Assembly (NCBI GenBank): GCA_016872755.1
Contig: VGZE01000007.1
Span: 1-51,488 of the forward strand
Source: Planctomycetota bacterium
Lineage (GTDB): Bacteria; Planctomycetota; UBA1135; GCA-002686595
Direction: 5' to 3'
Length of the DNA stretch: 51,488 nucleotides
The translations under genes and the position numbers were made by a program. The first letter of the stretch is position 1. Every line of letters begins with the position of its first letter. Shown in pieces: positions 1,082 to 26,347 of the stretch. Under the pieces are notes generated by a model. The model was not told the DNA's origin, searched no databases, and worked only from the letters and a program-made list of their open reading frames with translations.

Positions 1082-1094
1082 GTCGCTTCGATGC

Positions 1095-1100
1095 TAGGCT
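1095..1100 (+). promoter_or_regulatory. -10-like box TAGGCT just upstream of selD
   Basis: TAGGCT is preceded by TGC, an extended -10 arrangement, and lies 8 nt before the selD ATG at 1109. Transcription would then start at or next to the A of the start codon, giving a leaderless selD message. The same arrangement recurs before at least five other starts in this window. No matching -35 box is visible. This is inference from spacing. Confidence 0.4.
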
Positions 1101-1108
1101 GGATCGCG

Positions 1109-2185
1109 ATGAGCGATACGACCCTCGATCACCAGCACCCGCAGCTGACCCAATACGCCGACTGCGCCGGCTGAGCCGCCAAGCTGCCGCTCGGGCAGCT
1201 CGCGCACGTGTTGCGCGAACTCCAAGGCCAGAAGGACGACCGGTTGCTGGTCGGACCGCTGACGTACGACGACGCCGGTGTCGTCGTGCTCGGCGAGGGG
1301 GAAGGTCTGCCCCGCGGGAGCCGCGTCGGGCTCGTGCAGACGGTCGACTTCTTCCCGCCGGTCGTCGACGATCCGTGGTACTACGGCGCGATCGCCGCGG
1401 CGAACGCGCTGTCGGACGTCTACGCGATGGGCGGACGGCCGATCTCGGCGCTCAACATCGCCGGCTTCCCGAAGGACTTCCCACCTGAGTGGATCGCCGC
1501 GATCCTGCGCGGCGGCTACGCGAAGATCGCCGAGAGCGGCGCGGTCGTGGCCGGCGGCCACACGGTGCAGAGCGCGGTGCAGTTCGGCTTCGCCGTGACC
1601 GGCATCGTCGATCCGGAGCGGGTTGCGTCGAACGATCGGGCGCGCGCCGGCGAGCTCGCATACCTGACCAAGCCGATCGGCATGGGCTGCTTCACGACCG
1701 CCGCCAAGAAGCAGGCGATCTCCTGGAGCGAGCTCGAGCCGGCCGCACGCCAGATGGCGACGCTGAACGACCGCGCGGCCGCGGCGATGAACGAGGTCGG
1801 CGCGGGCGCCTGCACCGACATCACCGGATTCGGGCTGATCGGTCACGCCTTCAACATCGCGCGCGCCAGCCGGGTCACGCTGCGCATCGAGGCCGCGCGC
1901 GTGCCGCTCTTCCCCGGCGCGCTCGATCTGGCGCGCAAGGGGCTCTTCTCCGGCGGCTCCAAGCGCGGTCGCGCGAACCTGCAGGGCGAGTACGCGCTGG
2001 CCGCCGGACTCGACGAGGCGCTGGCCGGCCTGCTCTTCGACGCCGAGACCTCGGGCGGCCTGCTGATCGCGATCGCGCCCGAGCGCGCCCCCGCGCTCGA
2101 GCGCGCGCTTGCCGCGCGCGACCTGCCCGTCGCCTGCATCGGTCGCTTCTTGCCGCGAGGGGAGCATGCGATCGACGTGGTCTAG
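1109..2185 (+). CDS. selD: selenide, water dikinase (SelD), itself a selenoprotein with Sec at residue 22
   Basis: SelD makes selenophosphate from selenide and ATP, the selenium donor for SelA. An ATG at 1109 opens a frame beginning MSDTTLDHQHPQLTQYADCA. It continues through an in-frame TGA at 1172-1174 as C-A-G-U-A-A-K-L-P-L-G and then joins the long downstream SelD frame. The UGA sits exactly where SelD has its catalytic Cys or Sec, three residues before the conserved lysine, so it reads as Sec22. The total is 358 residues, close to the family size of about 350. Other family marks are the DDAGVV and TVDFFPPVVDDP metal-binding segments, NALSDVYAMGG, and the AGGHTV and GFGLIGHA glycine loops. 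A caller that treats UGA as a stop would begin at GTG 1208 and lose the active site. SelD therefore depends on its own product for its synthesis. Confidence 0.93.
1182..1200 (+). other. SECIS-like hairpin downstream of the selD UGA
   Basis: A perfect 7-bp stem, AGCTGCC paired with GGCAGCT, closes a 5-nt loop GCTCG that begins with G. The stem starts 7 nt after the UGA and the loop 14 nt after it. Bacterial SECIS elements are short hairpins just downstream of the UGA, within the coding region, with a G at the start of the apical loop and bound by SelB. The loop here is slightly closer to the UGA than is typical, so the exact fold is uncertain. Confidence 0.6.
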
Positions 2186-6241: not shown

Positions 6242-6339
6242 GGGAGCGGATCGGTGCTGGTGTGCCGCCCGGCCTTCAAAGCCGGTTGGGTCGCGTGAAC
6301 AGCGGGACCGGTGGGTTCGATTCCCATGCGCTCCCGCCA
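6242..6339 (+). tRNA. selC: tRNA-Sec (anticodon UCA)
   Basis: The 98-nt sequence folds as a bacterial selenocysteine tRNA. An 8-position acceptor GGGAGCGG faces GCGCTCCC (7 pairs plus one G-G mismatch). The D-stem is 6 bp (CGGTGC with GTGCCG, loop TGGT). The anticodon stem CCGGC/GCCGG encloses CTTCAAA, with TCA at 6276-6278. The variable arm is long, and the T-stem GTGGG/CCCAT closes loop TTCGATT. Discriminator G is followed by encoded CCA (6337-6339). The long variable arm, long D-stem and UCA anticodon distinguish it from tRNA-Ser and from suppressor-like tRNAs. It would read the UGA codons in selD and in the thioredoxin-like gene at 21845-22372. The two bases before the 5' end extend pairing with the 3' CC, which is probably incidental. 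Confidence 0.95.
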
Positions 6340-18234: not shown

Positions 18235-19269
18235 TCAGGCCGCCACGTGTTCGCGGCGCATGCGCCCGACCACCGCCGCCGTGAACGCGCTGGTCGAAAG
18301 CTTGCCGCCCAAGTCACGCGTGCGCTCGTTGGCGGCCAGCGTGTCGCGGATCGCCGCGCGCAGCGCGTCGGAAGCCTTCAACTCCCCGATGTGACGCAAC
18401 AGCGTGCACAGCGCGAGCAGCGCCGCCGTGGGATTGCACAGGTCCCTGCCCGCGATGTCGGGAGCCGTGCCGCCGGCGGGATCGAACATCGCCAGCGTCA
18501 CGTGGCCGTCCTCGTCGAACGCATAGGACGCGCTGTCGCCGACGCCGATCGAGCCGACCAGTCCGCAGGCCATGTCCGACAGGAAGTCGCCGTACTCGTT
18601 CGGGCACACGATCACCGAGTAGCGCTCCGGGTTCATGATGATCCCGGCCAGCAGCGAGTCGAACAGCTCGCGCCGGTAGGGGATGCCCGGGTAGTCCTCG
18701 CTGACCGCCTCGACCGTCTCCTCGAACAGCCCGTCGGCCGCGCGCTGGATCGTGTACTTGCTGGTCGAGACGACGTGCGTGCGCTTGGTCATGGCCAGCT
18801 TGAATGCGAAGCGCGCGGCCTTCTTGCACGGACCGCGCTCGATCACGCGCAGCGAAACCGCCGATTCGGCGCCGATGCGGCGGCCGCGGTCCTCGTAGGT
18901 GCCGCCGGTGGCGATGCGCACGACGTCGATGTCGAGCGGCTTGTTGAAGTTCGTCGGCAGCCCCGGCACGGTCATGACCGGGCGGTGGATCACGGCGAAG
19001 GCGAGCCGGTCGCGCAGGATCGCGTTGGGGCTCTCGCCCTCGGTGACCGTCGGGTACTTGAGCGCGATGCGGTGCGCGCGCACCAGCTCGACCGATTCGT
19101 CGTAGGCGGACGTGCCGCGGCGCGCGCGTTCTTCCAGCGACAGGTCCACCGGAGTGAACTGCAGCCGGCACGGCAGCGCCTCGGCGACGGTGTGAATGCT
19201 CCGGGAGAGTTCGGACGAGATGCCGTCGCCGAGCAGCTCGACGATGGTGTAGGACTTCGGAGGGCGCAT
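18235..19269 (-). CDS. isocitrate/isopropylmalate dehydrogenase family protein
   Basis: The 344-residue product is of normal length for the NAD-type beta-decarboxylating dehydrogenases. It has the N-terminal LLGDGISSEL nucleotide-fold turn, NAILRDRLAF with the substrate-binding arginines, and a substrate lysine region SKYTIQRAADGLF. Also present are CPNEYGDFLSDMACGLVGS with the metal-binding aspartates, and DPAGGTAPDIAGRDLCNPTA, the cofactor-loop signature. These enzymes oxidise and decarboxylate isocitrate, isopropylmalate or related 2-hydroxy acids; the sequence alone does not settle which. It lies 107 bp downstream of the peptidase fusion gene's start and is divergent from the gene at 19349. 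The ATG at 19269 is chosen because residues upstream are unrelated to the family. Confidence 0.85.
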   Translation of the reverse strand: MRPPKSYTIVELLGDGISSELSRSIHTVAEALPCRLQFTPVDLSLEERARRGTSAYDESVELVRAHRIALKYPTVTEGESPNAILRDRLAFAVIHRPVMTVPGLPTNFNKPLDIDVVRIATGGTYEDRGRRIGAESAVSLRVIERGPCKKAARFAFKLAMTKRTHVVSTSKYTIQRAADGLFEETVEAVSEDYPGIPYRRELFDSLLAGIIMNPERYSVIVCPNEYGDFLSDMACGLVGSIGVGDSASYAFDEDGHVTLAMFDPAGGTAPDIAGRDLCNPTAALLALCTLLRHIGELKASDALRAAIRDTLAANERTRDLGGKLSTSAFTAAVVGRMRREHVAA

Positions 19270-19348
19270 GTGGTGGTGTAGATCGCCTGCCGGCGGCTGC
19301 GCGGCGCGCGGCCGATCGGCACAATGGGCGAAAGATTCTATCGACGCA

Positions 19349-21256
19349 ATGAGCCCCCTCCCAAGCATGCTTGCTCCGATTCGCCGCTGCCGAGCGGGCT
19401 CGAGTGCGCGGCCGCTGGCCGCGCTGCTGCTCCTGGCCGGGTTCGCGTCGGCGCAGGCCGAGCCGCCGCGCGGATTCGCGCGCCGGGAGGTCCAGGTGCT
19501 CGGGAATCCCGCGCTGGAGCTGCTCGCGCCCACGGACCGCGAACTCTCGGCACAGCGGCGCCAGCTGCCCTATTGGAAGCTGCTCAACGGCACGACCCGC
19601 CCGTGGCTGGACGGAGCGAAGTCGCCGGGTGAGTGGGCCGCGCTGCTGGATCCGAGCGCGCCGCGAGTCGTCGGATTGTGGTTGGAGGGTGGTGCGCAGA
19701 TCGCCCAGTCGGCGGCGGCCTACGCTCCGTTCGCCGCTGAACTCTCGATCCGCGTCCGGCTGAGCGGCCGTGCGCGCATCGAGGTGATCGACGGCAACGG
19801 CCGGCGCTTCGCGCGCGATTTCGACCAGGCCGGCGAGCCGGAGACCGCCGTGATCCGCGGCGCGGAACTGGTCGCTGCCTTCGGCGCGCCCGTGCTGCCG
19901 CGTTTGCAACTGCGCATCAGCGGCGCCGGCGCGCGCATCGAGGAGGTCGAGCTGTTCGTGCCGCTGCCCGCTCCCGATGAGGCCGAACTGCTCGCTGAGA
20001 TCGAGTCCGAGCTCGGGTGGTTCATCGCGACCTGGTCCGAGCGCGCGCTCGACACGCTCGGCGAGCGCAAGACTGCGTTTGCCGCGCGCGACTTCGACGC
20101 GGTCAGCGGCGCGCCGCTGGCCGTGCTGGCGCGCAGTCCGGTGCTCGATTCGTTCTGGCAGCAACTGCTGGATGCCTGGGAGGCCGATCCGCGGCCGGAG
20201 TGGAGTGCGCTGCTGGAGCGCTACCTCGCGGACTTGTTCGAGCTGGGCTTGCAGCCGGGCAACGGCCTGCCGCGCGCGTGGGATCCCGAGCGCGACGTGC
20301 CGGTCGACGACTTGACGCTCGAGATCCACGCGCACCTGCGCTTCCTGTGCGAGCTCGCCGAGCGCGGCCCGCAGGCCTTCCGCGCGCGGGCGCGCGAGGC
20401 CGCGCTGAAGATCGGCGAGCTCGTGCTCGCGCTCGGCGTGCTGCCCGACGGCGCGGTCGCGGCCGCCTACCGCAGTTCGGACGGGCGGCCCTCGACCGAC
20501 ACGGTGCCGATCCGCCGCCTCGACCTGCCGGCGATGCTGGCGCGCCTGGGCGCGCTGAGCGGCGACGAGCGCTACGTCAGCGCCGCGCGCGACGCGCTCT
20601 TCGCGCTCGAGTTCGCGCACCACTGGCCGGGAACCTGGGACCGCATCGATCCGGGTTTCGACGACAACTTCGGGCACTACGGCGAGCGCGCGGCCGCCGC
20701 CGCGCACGCGCTGCCTGCGGAGCATTCCTTCCACGCCTTCGCGCTGTCCGGACACGCGCGCTATGCGCCGCTGCTCGCGCTCGCGCTGCGCTTCGGCGGC
20801 AATGTGGCGGCCGACCAGGTGCGCTGCTGGCGGATCTTCCGCGAGCTCGGTGAGCTCGTGCCGGCGCTGCGCGAGCCCAATCGCGCGCTGATCGTCGAGG
20901 CGGCGCGCAATCACTTTCGCGGCCAACAGGGCGCTTCCGGCGCCTGGCTGGACCTGACGATGCAGGGTTTCGATCCGGTCGCGCTGCCGGTCGGCGACAC
21001 CGGCGGCGTGCCGCAGAACCTGCTGGCCGGGCTTGCGCATGCGTACGAGCGCGAGCCCGACGCGCACGCGGCCGAGCTGCGCGCGATGTTCACGGCCGTG
21101 ATGCTGTCGACGCGCGCGCAGTACAGGGCCGAGTACGGCTACGTCAGCGGGGCGCGGCGCAACGAGGGGCGCGGGGCCGCGAACTCGGCCTCGGCCACGC
21201 TGCGCTATACGAGCGGCCTCGTCGCGATGCTGCGGCGGTTGAAGGGGCTCGATTGA
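19349..21256 (+). CDS. secreted protein with alpha-helical toroid-like domain, function unknown
   Basis: I do not recognise this family with confidence. The 635-residue product has a signal peptide ending near ASAQA, then a beta-rich segment of about 160 residues (VVGLWLEGGAQIAQSA, ELSIRVRLSGRARIEVIDG) that could bind carbohydrate. A largely alpha-helical region of 400 residues follows, with aromatic and charged patches such as FAHHWPGTWDRIDPGFDDNF and GHYGERAAAAAHALPAEHSF, reminiscent of (alpha/alpha)-barrel glycan-active enzymes. No catalytic residues can be assigned. An alternative start at ATG 19367 would also keep the signal peptide. It is divergent from the dehydrogenase gene and overlaps the next gene by 4 nt (TTGA), so those two are probably co-translated. 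Confidence 0.7.
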   Translation: MSPLPSMLAPIRRCRAGSSARPLAALLLLAGFASAQAEPPRGFARREVQVLGNPALELLAPTDRELSAQRRQLPYWKLLNGTTRPWLDGAKSPGEWAALLDPSAPRVVGLWLEGGAQIAQSAAAYAPFAAELSIRVRLSGRARIEVIDGNGRRFARDFDQAGEPETAVIRGAELVAAFGAPVLPRLQLRISGAGARIEEVELFVPLPAPDEAELLAEIESELGWFIATWSERALDTLGERKTAFAARDFDAVSGAPLAVLARSPVLDSFWQQLLDAWEADPRPEWSALLERYLADLFELGLQPGNGLPRAWDPERDVPVDDLTLEIHAHLRFLCELAERGPQAFRARAREAALKIGELVLALGVLPDGAVAAAYRSSDGRPSTDTVPIRRLDLPAMLARLGALSGDERYVSAARDALFALEFAHHWPGTWDRIDPGFDDNFGHYGERAAAAAHALPAEHSFHAFALSGHARYAPLLALALRFGGNVAADQVRCWRIFRELGELVPALREPNRALIVEAARNHFRGQQGASGAWLDLTMQGFDPVALPVGDTGGVPQNLLAGLAHAYEREPDAHAAELRAMFTAVMLSTRAQYRAEYGYVSGARRNEGRGAANSASATLRYTSGLVAMLRRLKGLD

Positions 21257-21844: not shown

Positions 21845-22372
21845 TCAGCGATCAGCCCGGAAGGCCGCGCGACCTGCCTCGAGCTGGGTCAAGACCTGCT
21901 GAACTGGAATCTCGCCCGCGACGGGGTTGCCGTCCAAGCGACCGGCCAGTTCGCTGCCCTTGGAGTCGAAGATGCGCAGCACCGGATAGCTGCCGTAGCT
22001 CTCGCCAAAGTTCAGGAAGGGCTTCGATCGATCCAGCGTGTCGATGAACACGGGCACGAAAGCAGCGGCTGCCTGGACGATGCGTGGATCGCGCAGCGGA
22101 CCGCTCGCGAACTTCTGGCAACCGAGTCAGCCGGGGTGCTCGCCGAAGTGCACCCACAGAGGCTTGTTGGACGCTCTGGCGATCGCGCGCGCTTGTTCGT
22201 AGTCCACATGCCAGCGGATCTTGCCGATCTCGACGGTGGCACTGGTCTGCGAGATGGTGGGCGCGGGCTGCGAGCTGGACTCGGAGCCGGAGCCACAGGC
22301 CGCCGGCAGACAGCTGATCCCCAGAACCGCCAACGGCAGGGCGCGCGGGTGTCGGGAAGCGGGGGTGGCCAT
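21845..22372 (-). CDS. thioredoxin-fold selenoprotein with UxxC active site, lipoprotein-like
   Basis: From ATG 22372 a 175-codon frame runs to a TGA at 21845, interrupted only by an in-frame TGA at 22129-22127 (residue 82). Read through as Sec it gives KPLWVHFGEHPG-U-L-G-C-QKF, a U-x-x-C redox motif at the exact place of the thioredoxin CxxC. It is followed by RDPRIVQAAAAFVPVFIDTL and YPVLRIFDSKGSELAGRLDG, the second half of a thioredoxin-like (Thioredoxin_7-type) domain, with the cis-proline in SYPVLRIF. The frame is clean on both sides of the UGA, and the two halves form one domain. The N-terminus has a hydrophobic stretch with LPAACGSG, an imperfect lipobox, so the product is probably exported and lipid-anchored. 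A GGTC-loop hairpin follows the UGA, and selA, selD and selC lie in the same window. The partner or substrate is unknown. A plain nonsense mutation is the alternative, but UGA at the catalytic position argues strongly for Sec. Confidence 0.85.
22090..22109 (-). other. SECIS-like hairpin downstream of the selenoprotein UGA
   Basis: On the coding strand, CGCG-AGCG then GTC then CGCT-(G)-CGCG forms two 4-bp stems separated by one bulged G. The apex reads GCGGTCCGC, closely resembling the GGUC apical loop of the E. coli fdhF SECIS. The hairpin begins 17 nt, and the GGTC 24 nt, after the UGA, within the usual bacterial range. The fold was paired by hand. Confidence 0.65.
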
Positions 22373-23566: not shown

Positions 23567-24263
23567 GCCGCAATTCCAGCAGCGCCTCGAGCGGCTCGGC
23601 TTCGACGCGCGGGAGCGCGCCGAGCTGGCCGACCACGTCGAGTGCCGGGCCCAGCAGCTCGAACGCGCCGGACTTTCGCGCGCCGAGGCGGTCGAACGCG
23701 CCTGTGCCGGCCTGGGCGACCTGCGCCAGATCGCGCGCGAGCTGCACGCGCCGCGAGTGCGGCGCATGCAACTCCAGCGCGTGCTCGGCGCCGCGTTGGT
23801 GCTCGCCGCGCTCGGCGTGATCCCGCTCTCGGCTGGCGTGCTCGGCGGCCTGCTGGCCGCGGCGCCGCTCGGGCTGGTCCTGGCACTCGTGGCGAGCGGG
23901 CTGTGGGCGAGCTTCGGTCCGCGGCGCGCCGCCGCTGCGTGGCGGGTCGCGTGGGAAGGCGGCGTAGTCGAGTTCGAGCGCGCGCGCGCGGCCGTGCGCG
24001 TGTTCGAGCGCGGCGAGCGCCTCGCTTGGGTCGCCGGACCGATCGCCTTCCTCGTGCTCGCGGCCGTCGAAGCGTCGCGCCTGGCGGATCCGCCGCAGTT
24101 CTACTCCGGCCTCGCGCGCGCCGCGCTCGCGCTGCCGTGCGGCGCGATCCTGGGCGCCTTCGTGTTCGGCACGCTGGCGACCTGGGCGCGCGAGACTTGT
24201 GGAGATCGCGGCGACGGTGACAGACTTGCACTCGAGGGCGGTCCGACCGGACCGCAGCCATGA
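23559..24263 (+). CDS. permease-prefix-domain membrane protein, PadR partner
   Basis: The 234-residue product begins with a soluble helical segment of about 65 residues, FQQRLERLGFDARERAELAD and ERACAGLGDLRQIARELHA. This is the permease-prefix type of domain usually encoded next to PadR-like regulators. Four hydrophobic helices follow, including ALVLAALGVIPLSAGVLGGL and IAFLVLAAVEASRLA. It overlaps padR by 8 nt and the next gene by 4 nt (ATGA), so the three form one translationally coupled unit. It may sense the membrane and tether or tune the regulator; no enzymatic motif is present. Confidence 0.72.
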   Translation: MREPQFQQRLERLGFDARERAELADHVECRAQQLERAGLSRAEAVERACAGLGDLRQIARELHAPRVRRMQLQRVLGAALVLAALGVIPLSAGVLGGLLAAAPLGLVLALVASGLWASFGPRRAAAAWRVAWEGGVVEFERARAAVRVFERGERLAWVAGPIAFLVLAAVEASRLADPPQFYSGLARAALALPCGAILGAFVFGTLATWARETCGDRGDGDRLALEGGPTGPQP

Positions 24264-26347
24264 CCCTGCGCGAGCAAACCCTCGAATCGATCCACCCGTT
24301 CCGCTTCCTGCCTCCTTCGCTGCGGGCGGAACTGGCCGAGGCGCTCGTCGAGCACGACGTCGCGCCCGGACAGCCGATCCTGCGCCAGGGCGACGCGCAG
24401 GACAAGCGCGTGTGGCTGCTCGCGCGCGGTCGGCTCGAGCAGGTCGAGACCTGGCCGCGCGAGCATCCGCTCGGCGTGCTCGAAGCGCCGCGCTTCTTCG
24501 GCGAGCGCGCCGCGCTGTTCGACGAGTCGCGCCCGTCGACCGTGCGCGCGCTGACGCAGGCCGTGTGCTATTCGATCGAGGCCGAGCGCTTCCTGCTCTT
24601 GCTGCGCGAGGACGTGACCTTCGCGCAGGCGCTGGGCGAACTGCTGCGCGACAAACGCGCGATCTTCGCCGCCTTCGATCGCTTCCGCGCCGAGCTGCTG
24701 CACGGCGTCGCGACCGGTGAGATCTCGCTCAAGCGGCTGCTGCCGCTGTATCGCGCGCTGGAACCCGCGCTGCACCCGCGCCTGGCCGACGAGCGCGAGA
24801 TCGATTGGGGGGCGCTGTCCTACGCGGTGCGCCGGCTGCCGGAGAACGTCGGGCGCACGCTGATGTTCTTCCTGACCGACGAGCTGCCGGAGTTCTACGC
24901 CGCGCTCGCTCCGAGCTTCCGCTCCGTGCCGACCGACGTGCGGCCGCGTTCGGTGTACGAGATGCTGCCGGGCAAGAGCATCGTGATCCTGCGCGACGGC
25001 CTGTCGGATCTGATCGACCTGGTCACCTGCCTGTGCCTGTACTCGATCGAGGCGCGCAAGATCCGCCGGCGGCTGCGCGGGCCCGGCGCGGTCGATGCGC
25101 TCTCACGGCTGCCGACCGATCTGGCGGCGCTGCGCAGCGAGTGTCCGGTCGAGGGCGAATTCGATTGCGACGATCTGGCCACGCTGCCCTTCGATGCGGA
25201 CGAGCTGGCGCGACTGACGGCCATCTGGCCGCGCGACACGCTGCTGCGTGTGCGCGAGATCGTCGTGCACCACGAGGACTTCGGTCTCGAGATCAAGAAG
25301 CAGGTGCACAACTACAACAGCGTGCACGGCGAGCGCTGGACCGCGCAGATCGCGCGGGCGACGCGCGAACTGATGGGCGCGGATCCGACCGAGCTGCCCG
25401 ACGGGCTCGACGTGCACGTGATCAGCAGCAACACGCACTCGGTCGGCAACTGCCTTTCCTCGTACTGGCCCGCGCGGGCGGCCGAGATCGAGGTCTGGGC
25501 GCGTGCCGAGCGCCCCGAACTCGCGGCCGAGCTGCCCGAGCGCGCCGACCTCGTGTACGCGGCCGGGCGCGAATGGCTGGCGCTGGATGCGGCGCGCGGA
25601 CGCGAGCGCCGCGAGCAGGAGGCGCGCGACGGCCACGCGCGGCTGTCGGAGGGAGCGTTCACCGGCATCCAGGTCGACCTGATCGACTTGCGCCGTCTGG
25701 CCGGTCGCGCGATCGATCCGCTGCTGCCTGCCGTCGCCGGCGGTGCGAATGCGCTGCTGGTCAACATCGACTTCGCGTTCGGCCAGCAAGCCGCCGAGAT
25801 CCTGGGCAGCCTGATCACGCTGTTCGGCCCCCGTCTGCGCAGCGTCAACGTGCTTGGCAAGGCAGGCGCGCTGCTCGGCAAACGCGGCGACCTGCTGGTG
25901 CCCGACGCGTTCGTCGAGCAGGGCGCCGACGGTCTGCTGCCCCTCGCGCACCTGCAGCGCATCGACTGTGCGCGCCTCGCGGCGCGCTCGGGCGGGCGCG
26001 AGTTGCATCGAGGTCGCCTGCTGACCGTGGCGGGCACGCTGCTGCAGAATCGGCGGATGCTGCACTTCTACCGGCGCATCTGGGGCTGCGTCGGCCTCGA
26101 GATGGAGGGTTGGTCCTATGCGCGCAAGCTGATCGACGCGCAGCGCCTGGGCATGCTGCGCGCGGACCTCGACGCGCGCTTCGTGTACTACGTGTCGGAC
26201 CTGCCGCTGGCTCCGCACTCCTCGCTGGCCGAGCGGCTGGGTGCGGGCGAGGGGATTCCGCCGCTCTACGCGATCACGCGCGAGGTGCTGTGCGAGATCC
26301 TCGAACGCGCGCCCGTGCTGCCGCCGTCGCGAGTCCCGGCGCGCTGA
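24260..26347 (+). CDS. cyclic-nucleotide-binding domain fused to a nucleoside-phosphorylase-like domain
   Basis: In the 695-residue product, residues 10-130 or so form a cNMP-binding beta-barrel: HDVAPGQPILRQGDAQDKRV, LLARGRLEQVE, and RFFGERAALFDESRPSTVRA, the phosphate-binding cassette. A long middle section without obvious family marks follows (VHNYNSVHGERWTAQIARAT, SSNTHSVGNCLSSYWPAR). The last 250 residues contain LRSVNVLGKAGALLGKRGDL, LLTVAGTLL and CVGLEMEGWSYARKL. These resemble the glycine loop and the M-E-G active-site motif of purine-nucleoside phosphorylase/MTA nucleosidase folds. It is translationally coupled to the permease-prefix gene. A cNMP-regulated nucleosidase or a nucleotide-sensing protein (DUF6909-like) is the inference; activity is unproven. 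No transmembrane segment is present. Confidence 0.7.
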   Translation: MTLREQTLESIHPFRFLPPSLRAELAEALVEHDVAPGQPILRQGDAQDKRVWLLARGRLEQVETWPREHPLGVLEAPRFFGERAALFDESRPSTVRALTQAVCYSIEAERFLLLLREDVTFAQALGELLRDKRAIFAAFDRFRAELLHGVATGEISLKRLLPLYRALEPALHPRLADEREIDWGALSYAVRRLPENVGRTLMFFLTDELPEFYAALAPSFRSVPTDVRPRSVYEMLPGKSIVILRDGLSDLIDLVTCLCLYSIEARKIRRRLRGPGAVDALSRLPTDLAALRSECPVEGEFDCDDLATLPFDADELARLTAIWPRDTLLRVREIVVHHEDFGLEIKKQVHNYNSVHGERWTAQIARATRELMGADPTELPDGLDVHVISSNTHSVGNCLSSYWPARAAEIEVWARAERPELAAELPERADLVYAAGREWLALDAARGRERREQEARDGHARLSEGAFTGIQVDLIDLRRLAGRAIDPLLPAVAGGANALLVNIDFAFGQQAAEILGSLITLFGPRLRSVNVLGKAGALLGKRGDLLVPDAFVEQGADGLLPLAHLQRIDCARLAARSGGRELHRGRLLTVAGTLLQNRRMLHFYRRIWGCVGLEMEGWSYARKLIDAQRLGMLRADLDARFVYYVSDLPLAPHSSLAERLGAGEGIPPLYAITREVLCEILERAPVLPPSRVPAR

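Follow-up and report, generated by a model that had tools for sequence, protein, structure and literature searches.

A probable UxxC selenoprotein of the Thioredoxin_7 family encoded across an in-frame UGA in a planctomycete genome

A reverse-strand gene of a Planctomycetota bacterium very probably encodes a selenoprotein. An in-frame UGA would be read as selenocysteine (Sec) by means of SelA, SelB, SelC, SelD and a hairpin, and the product would be an extracytoplasmic, probably lipid-anchored thiol/selenol-disulfide oxidoreductase. The gene lies in a window of 51,488 nucleotides, the whole stretch of DNA analysed, which is an entire contig of a 3.98 Mb genome from a metagenome-type assembly (389 contigs, 87% complete). 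From 22372 to 21845 the frame has a sole interruption, the TGA at residue 82 (22129-22127), and it closes with a terminal TGA. An earlier note, made from the DNA letters alone, had described this single-UGA frame, had placed the UGA where a thioredoxin CxxC has its first cysteine, and had seen thioredoxin-like sequence on both sides; all three observations are borne out. The read-through product is MATPASRH...WVHFGEHPGU(82)LGC(85)QKFASGPLRDPR...GSYPVLR...RADR-stop, and the UGA is exactly at the first position of the pair, in PGULGC. With the UGA translated as Cys, the protein, here termed the U82 protein, matches PF13899 (Thioredoxin_7) with E=3.4e-10 over residues 53-136 (40.4 bits; gathering threshold 27), and the match therefore runs across residue 82.

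Table 1. Positions of the gene, its signals and the selenocysteine machinery in the window
Feature	Position	Strand	Remarks
Selenoprotein gene (probable)	21845..22372	-	175 residues, Sec at 82, Thioredoxin_7 domain 53-136, stop TGA 21847-21845
In-frame UGA, probably read as selenocysteine	22127..22129	-	motif PG-U-LG-C; kept in 10/10 distinct orthologues
Bacterial SECIS-like hairpin	22089..22110	-	9 bp plus one bulged base; GUC loop 22101-22099
N-terminal signal region, probable lipobox	22295..22372	-	C21 fits the pattern, C26 is the conserved Cys
selA, 5' end cut by contig edge	1..1081	+	TIGR00474, 398 bits (cut-off 268)
selD, Sec-containing	1091..2185	+	start ATG 1091 or 1109; TIGR00476, 302 bits (cut-off 125)
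selC, tRNA-Sec	6242..6339	+	anticodon UCA; RF01852, 73.5 bits

The gene stands by itself, with a convergent GNAT gene on one side and, on the other, a divergent gene of the 3-keto-disaccharide hydrolase type. No conserved operon or partner gene was apparent by eye in the ORF lists around nine orthologues, and a promoter and terminator scan found nothing. Elsewhere in the window, an open reading frame at 24260-26347 (+) joins a DUF6909 domain to a cyclic-nucleotide-binding domain, and a 662-residue frame at 19268-21256 (+) has a GC3 like that of coding sequence and matches neither Pfam nor NCBIfam models.

The search for orthologues covered 61 related genomes, 392 drawn from the whole phylum and 154 of the class. 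After duplicate loci were taken out (L033, identical to L003, and L035, identical to L002), ten distinct orthologues were retained: the window gene (L001), L002-L007, L037, L038 and L043. They are spread over at least five families of Planctomycetota in GTDB and are 54-65% identical across the domain. All ten have UGA at the PGUxGC codon, and none has an in-frame stop in the 88 codons that follow. At E<=1e-20, the 61, 392 and 154 genomes yielded no member of the clade with Cys, and extending the search to the orders to which two distant members belong brought no additional orthologues. When window peptides were run against the GTDB contig collection, an insensitive scan, planctomycetes alone were returned. 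In the region 3' of the UGA, the median dN/dS is 0.26 (maximum 0.60; 45 pairs of the ten orthologues), a value that is only approximate since dS is high for many pairs. The low ratio is purifying selection, the signature of a translated protein. Two distant orthologues, L037 and L038, have a region of ∼350-400 residues without Pfam match fused N-terminally to the Sec thioredoxin domain (L055 4010-5602 (-) and L056 3165-4610 (+)).

Downstream of the UGA is a hairpin of sequence UCGCG-AGCG-[GUC]-CGCU-(G)-CGCGA, with a stability of approximately -12.0 kcal/mol. Its stem occupies nucleotides +17 to +38 after the UGA and its loop nucleotides +26 to +28, beginning 25 nt after the UGA. The bacterial SECIS (bSECIS) model specifies a loop of 3-9 nt with a G in the first two loop positions, located 16-37 nt after the UGA, and a minimum free energy of -7.5 or below (PMC13188914). 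Folding with such a model, which the earlier note had proposed as a check, shows that the hairpin fits (GUC, 25 nt, -12.0). The GGTC-loop hairpin of that note is thus real, with GUC as the loop, but taken alone it is no more than chance would provide: among the window's 777 TGA triplets, 51% also fit the bSECIS model and 24% have an equally stable hairpin, and 22% of synonymous recodings give one as good. Comparable hairpins are not rare in DNA of such high GC content. Accordingly, the hairpin was rejected as a proof by itself.

What goes beyond chance is conservation, i.e. that of the UGA, of the hairpin spacing and of the codons, together with purifying selection. A GUC-loop hairpin with a stem of 9-10 bp and a loop exactly 25 nt past the UGA is present in all ten orthologues, with stabilities from -11.9 to -15.7 kcal/mol. 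The stem-loop codons for A, G and P are GCG, GGT and CCG in every one of them, and elsewhere only one of 25 comparably degenerate invariant-residue columns is codon-invariant (Fisher p=0.004, from a small table). In the sampled genes of the window, only 9.6% of glycines are encoded by GGT. In L038 the protein sequence has changed from RDPR to ANEK, and a 10-bp stem is retained. Covariation was set aside as evidence, variation within the clade being too small to count; with the YFTRSY group described below added, it amounts to one double change and one G-U swap.

The machinery for Sec insertion is largely encoded in the window itself. The earlier note had reported selA, selD and selC there, and profile searches with TIGR00474, TIGR00476 and RF01852 recover all three; among Rfam families, tRNA-Sec is the only match. 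The selB gene is outside the window, on contig 178 of the genome (352 bits; cut-off 242). SelB and tRNA-Sec score above cut-offs in every orthologue-bearing genome that was searched. The selD gene carries a UGA of its own at 1172-1174, in DCAGUAAK, which is in itself an indication that UGA is translated as Sec in this organism. Ordinary ORF calling starts selD at 1208, with loss of the active site.

The nearest relatives outside the clade are VPGUxxT-type proteins, with the motif FQE[VI]PG[UC]xxC. Among 17 distinct loci of this type, the U82 column holds UGA in 12 and Cys in five (VPGC proteins L008, L009, L018, L045 and L046). Residues 82 and 85 are invariant in 31 aligned sequences when U is written as C. 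In a phylogenetic tree, the ten PGUxGC proteins form one clade (support 0.95), the VPGUxxT proteins a separate group (0.78), and a third Sec group is characterized by YFTRSYxxUxPC (0.97). The earlier note had proposed that residue 82 should face Cys in relatives lacking Sec. Homologues do align end to end and the VPGC relatives do have Cys, but there is no Cys form inside the direct clade, and the Cys/Sec exchange is therefore visible only against a sister family of ∼30% identity. Hairpin stability also differs within the sister family: four tested Cys members range from 0 to -7.4 kcal/mol, whereas nearly all Sec members range from -7.2 to -16.8 and most from -9 to -17. The exceptions among the Sec members are L015, with no hairpin under the strict model, and L050, with only -7.2.

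Nine of the 17 VPGUxxT-type loci (L010, L013-L017, L019, L047 and L050) encode a C-terminal MsrA-like domain in which the active-site Cys codon is a second in-frame UGA, as in FGMTUYW and FGMSUFW, and the frame goes on for ∼120-180 residues after it. Residues at the first and second sites pair as U/U in nine loci, U/C in three, C/C in five and C/U in none. The catalogue gives one Sec for the VPGUxxT family (PMC13188914). The YFTRSYxxUxPC group, also of the Thioredoxin_7 type, has UGA in all four loci (L021, L022, L023 and L024). Its hairpins have stabilities of -13.5 to -14.7 with the loop again 25 nt after the UGA, and that of L024 displays one C-G to U-A swap. L021 and L024 show a weak DsbH match and no NCBIfam model above cut-off.

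An AlphaFold model of the U82 protein predicts a thioredoxin fold with confidence (mean pLDDT 85.6, and >90 through most of the domain). In the model U82 directly precedes helix 83-90, the site of the attacking Cys in thioredoxins, and an invariant SYP loop of the cis-Pro type is at residues 128-130. The closest solved folds are 3f9u, the DsbH-like 7tkv and DsbD-gamma (1uc7/1vrs), with moderate TM-scores of 0.43-0.56 that are normalized by query length and include the low-confidence N-terminus. By sequence, the closest structures are DsbH 2ju5 and DsbD-gamma 2fwe. A lipobox pattern is present in seven of eight short members, the window protein included. In the window protein the pattern falls on C21, and the Cys aligned across the short orthologues is C26. 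The N-terminal signal and the conserved Cys point to a probable lipoprotein. The exported, lipid-anchored Sec redox protein of the earlier note is supported as to Sec, but the anchor is only probable, given the choice between C21 and C26. The genome encodes one DsbD_TM protein.

We infer selenium incorporation, location, substrate and the direction of electron flow in the following scheme. The UGA would be translated as Sec by the organism's own SelA, SelB, SelC and SelD, guided by the adjacent downstream hairpin. The product would be a single 175-residue protein with a short export signal, probably that of a lipoprotein, followed by one Thioredoxin_7 domain, and the first active-site helix would carry the active site U82-L-G-C85 at its N-terminus. 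Outside the cytoplasm, the U82 selenolate may attack an oxidized substrate and C85 may resolve the selenenylsulfide; a membrane donor, perhaps the DsbD-type protein of the genome, would then re-reduce the U82 protein.

Other readings of the UGA have to be weighed. It could be a true stop in a decaying pseudogene or an assembly error, as a fragmented metagenome-type assembly and a clade without a known Cys orthologue might suggest, but ten distinct genes, taken from different genomes, all have UGA at this codon, and selection persists past it with no further in-frame stop; this explanation is extremely improbable. It is very improbable, too, that the UGA ends a short N-terminal product and that the C-terminal half of a split thioredoxin is made from an internal start. 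There are in-frame GTG and ATG codons downstream, where the ORF caller begins some fragments, yet a break here would separate the strand and the helix that bear the active site. Further points against a split gene are the conservation of C85 and of the codons immediately after the UGA, the constant distance of 25 nt from UGA to hairpin, and the Sec machinery of the genomes that bear the gene. A conserved gene with a UGA that is read through would also be expected if a suppressor tRNA or a reassigned genetic code made the codon specify another amino acid such as Trp. There is almost no likelihood of this, since both the gene and selA terminate in UGA, tRNA-Sec is the only tRNA with a UCA anticodon seen in the window, and relatives hold Cys, not Trp, in the column.

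A different question is the function of the protein once Sec is accepted. Instead of a general disulfide oxidoreductase, the U82 protein might be an enzyme of peroxide or methionine-sulfoxide defence, or a reductant dedicated to such an enzyme. In favour of such a role, Sec is typical of peroxide-reducing enzymes, and in the sister VPGUxxT proteins a domain of this kind is fused to an MsrA-like one, which often has UGA in place of its active-site Cys codon. However, the window protein and the short orthologues have no MsrA-like part, the resolving Cys of the UxxC pair is retained, and the nearest folds are reductases of the DsbD-gamma/DsbH type; the defence role is accordingly considered unlikely. 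The thiol/selenol-disulfide oxidoreductase thus remains the preferred reading. Planctomycetota may have, although this is doubtful, a so far unrecognised redox network outside the cytoplasm that is built from Thioredoxin_7 selenoproteins, with the U82 protein as its free-standing electron carrier. Such a network would comprise the obligately Sec PGUxGC clade, some members with an N-terminal fusion, the YFTRSYxxUxPC clade and the VPGUxxT double selenoproteins, in which the UxxC thioredoxin domain would feed electrons to the Sec-containing MsrA-like domain.

The U82 clade is a small, so far uncatalogued family with Sec in every relative found. A family of its layout was not found among the 119 prokaryotic families in PMC13188914, nor was the subfamily found in NCBIfam release 20. 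The main text of the planctomycete selenoprotein paper PMC4807772 does not name a protein of this type. The clade is monophyletic and scores below the NCBIfam cut-offs of the nearest named families, and the catalogue has no family of its layout; it is therefore termed a new subfamily, that of a UxxC Thioredoxin_7 selenoprotein. The protein that the earlier note called new is thus new as a subfamily beside the catalogued VPGUxxT, but not as a kind. Because no Cys-using member of the clade was found, searches that depend on Cys versions are likely to miss or truncate these genes, which suggests that selenoprotein surveys of Planctomycetota are incomplete.

The best NCBIfam match of the U82 protein is VPGUxxT type 2 (NF041383; E=9.7e-21, profile positions 1-109 of 287), a family termed 'OS_HP5' in the 2026 catalogue (PMC13188914). 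The two share a homologous thioredoxin domain in which PGU occupies the CxxC position; VPGUxxT proteins likewise occur in planctomycetes, and most of their Sec members have a downstream hairpin. They differ in that the U82 protein ends after the thioredoxin domain and lacks the C-terminal MsrA-like half (profile 110-287), in the motif (HFGExPGUxGC versus FQE[VI]PGUxxC), and in that the U82 proteins form their own clade (0.95). Scores are 74.7 bits against a cut-off of 275 for NF041383 and 56.3 against 350 for NF041382 (type 1); cut-offs and domain layout rule out an assignment to VPGUxxT. The Trx7/PDZ (seleno)protein (NF041199) has in common the Thioredoxin_7 fold and selenocysteine, but its redox motif is CxxU (PMC13188914, Table 1) and not UxxC, the U82 protein has no PDZ domain, and its score is 25.3 bits against a cut-off of 300. 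The UxxC thioredoxin selenoprotein (PF00085; PMC13188914) also has Sec in place of the attacking Cys of CxxC but belongs to another thioredoxin family, and for the U82 protein, which is probably exported, PF00085 is not among the matches listed up to E=1. With the periplasmic reductases of the DsbD-gamma/DsbH type (PF13899), the likeness is one of fold similarity only, including the position of the redox pair; the known structures have Cys, whereas the U82 protein, a short, probable lipoprotein of one domain, very probably has Sec.
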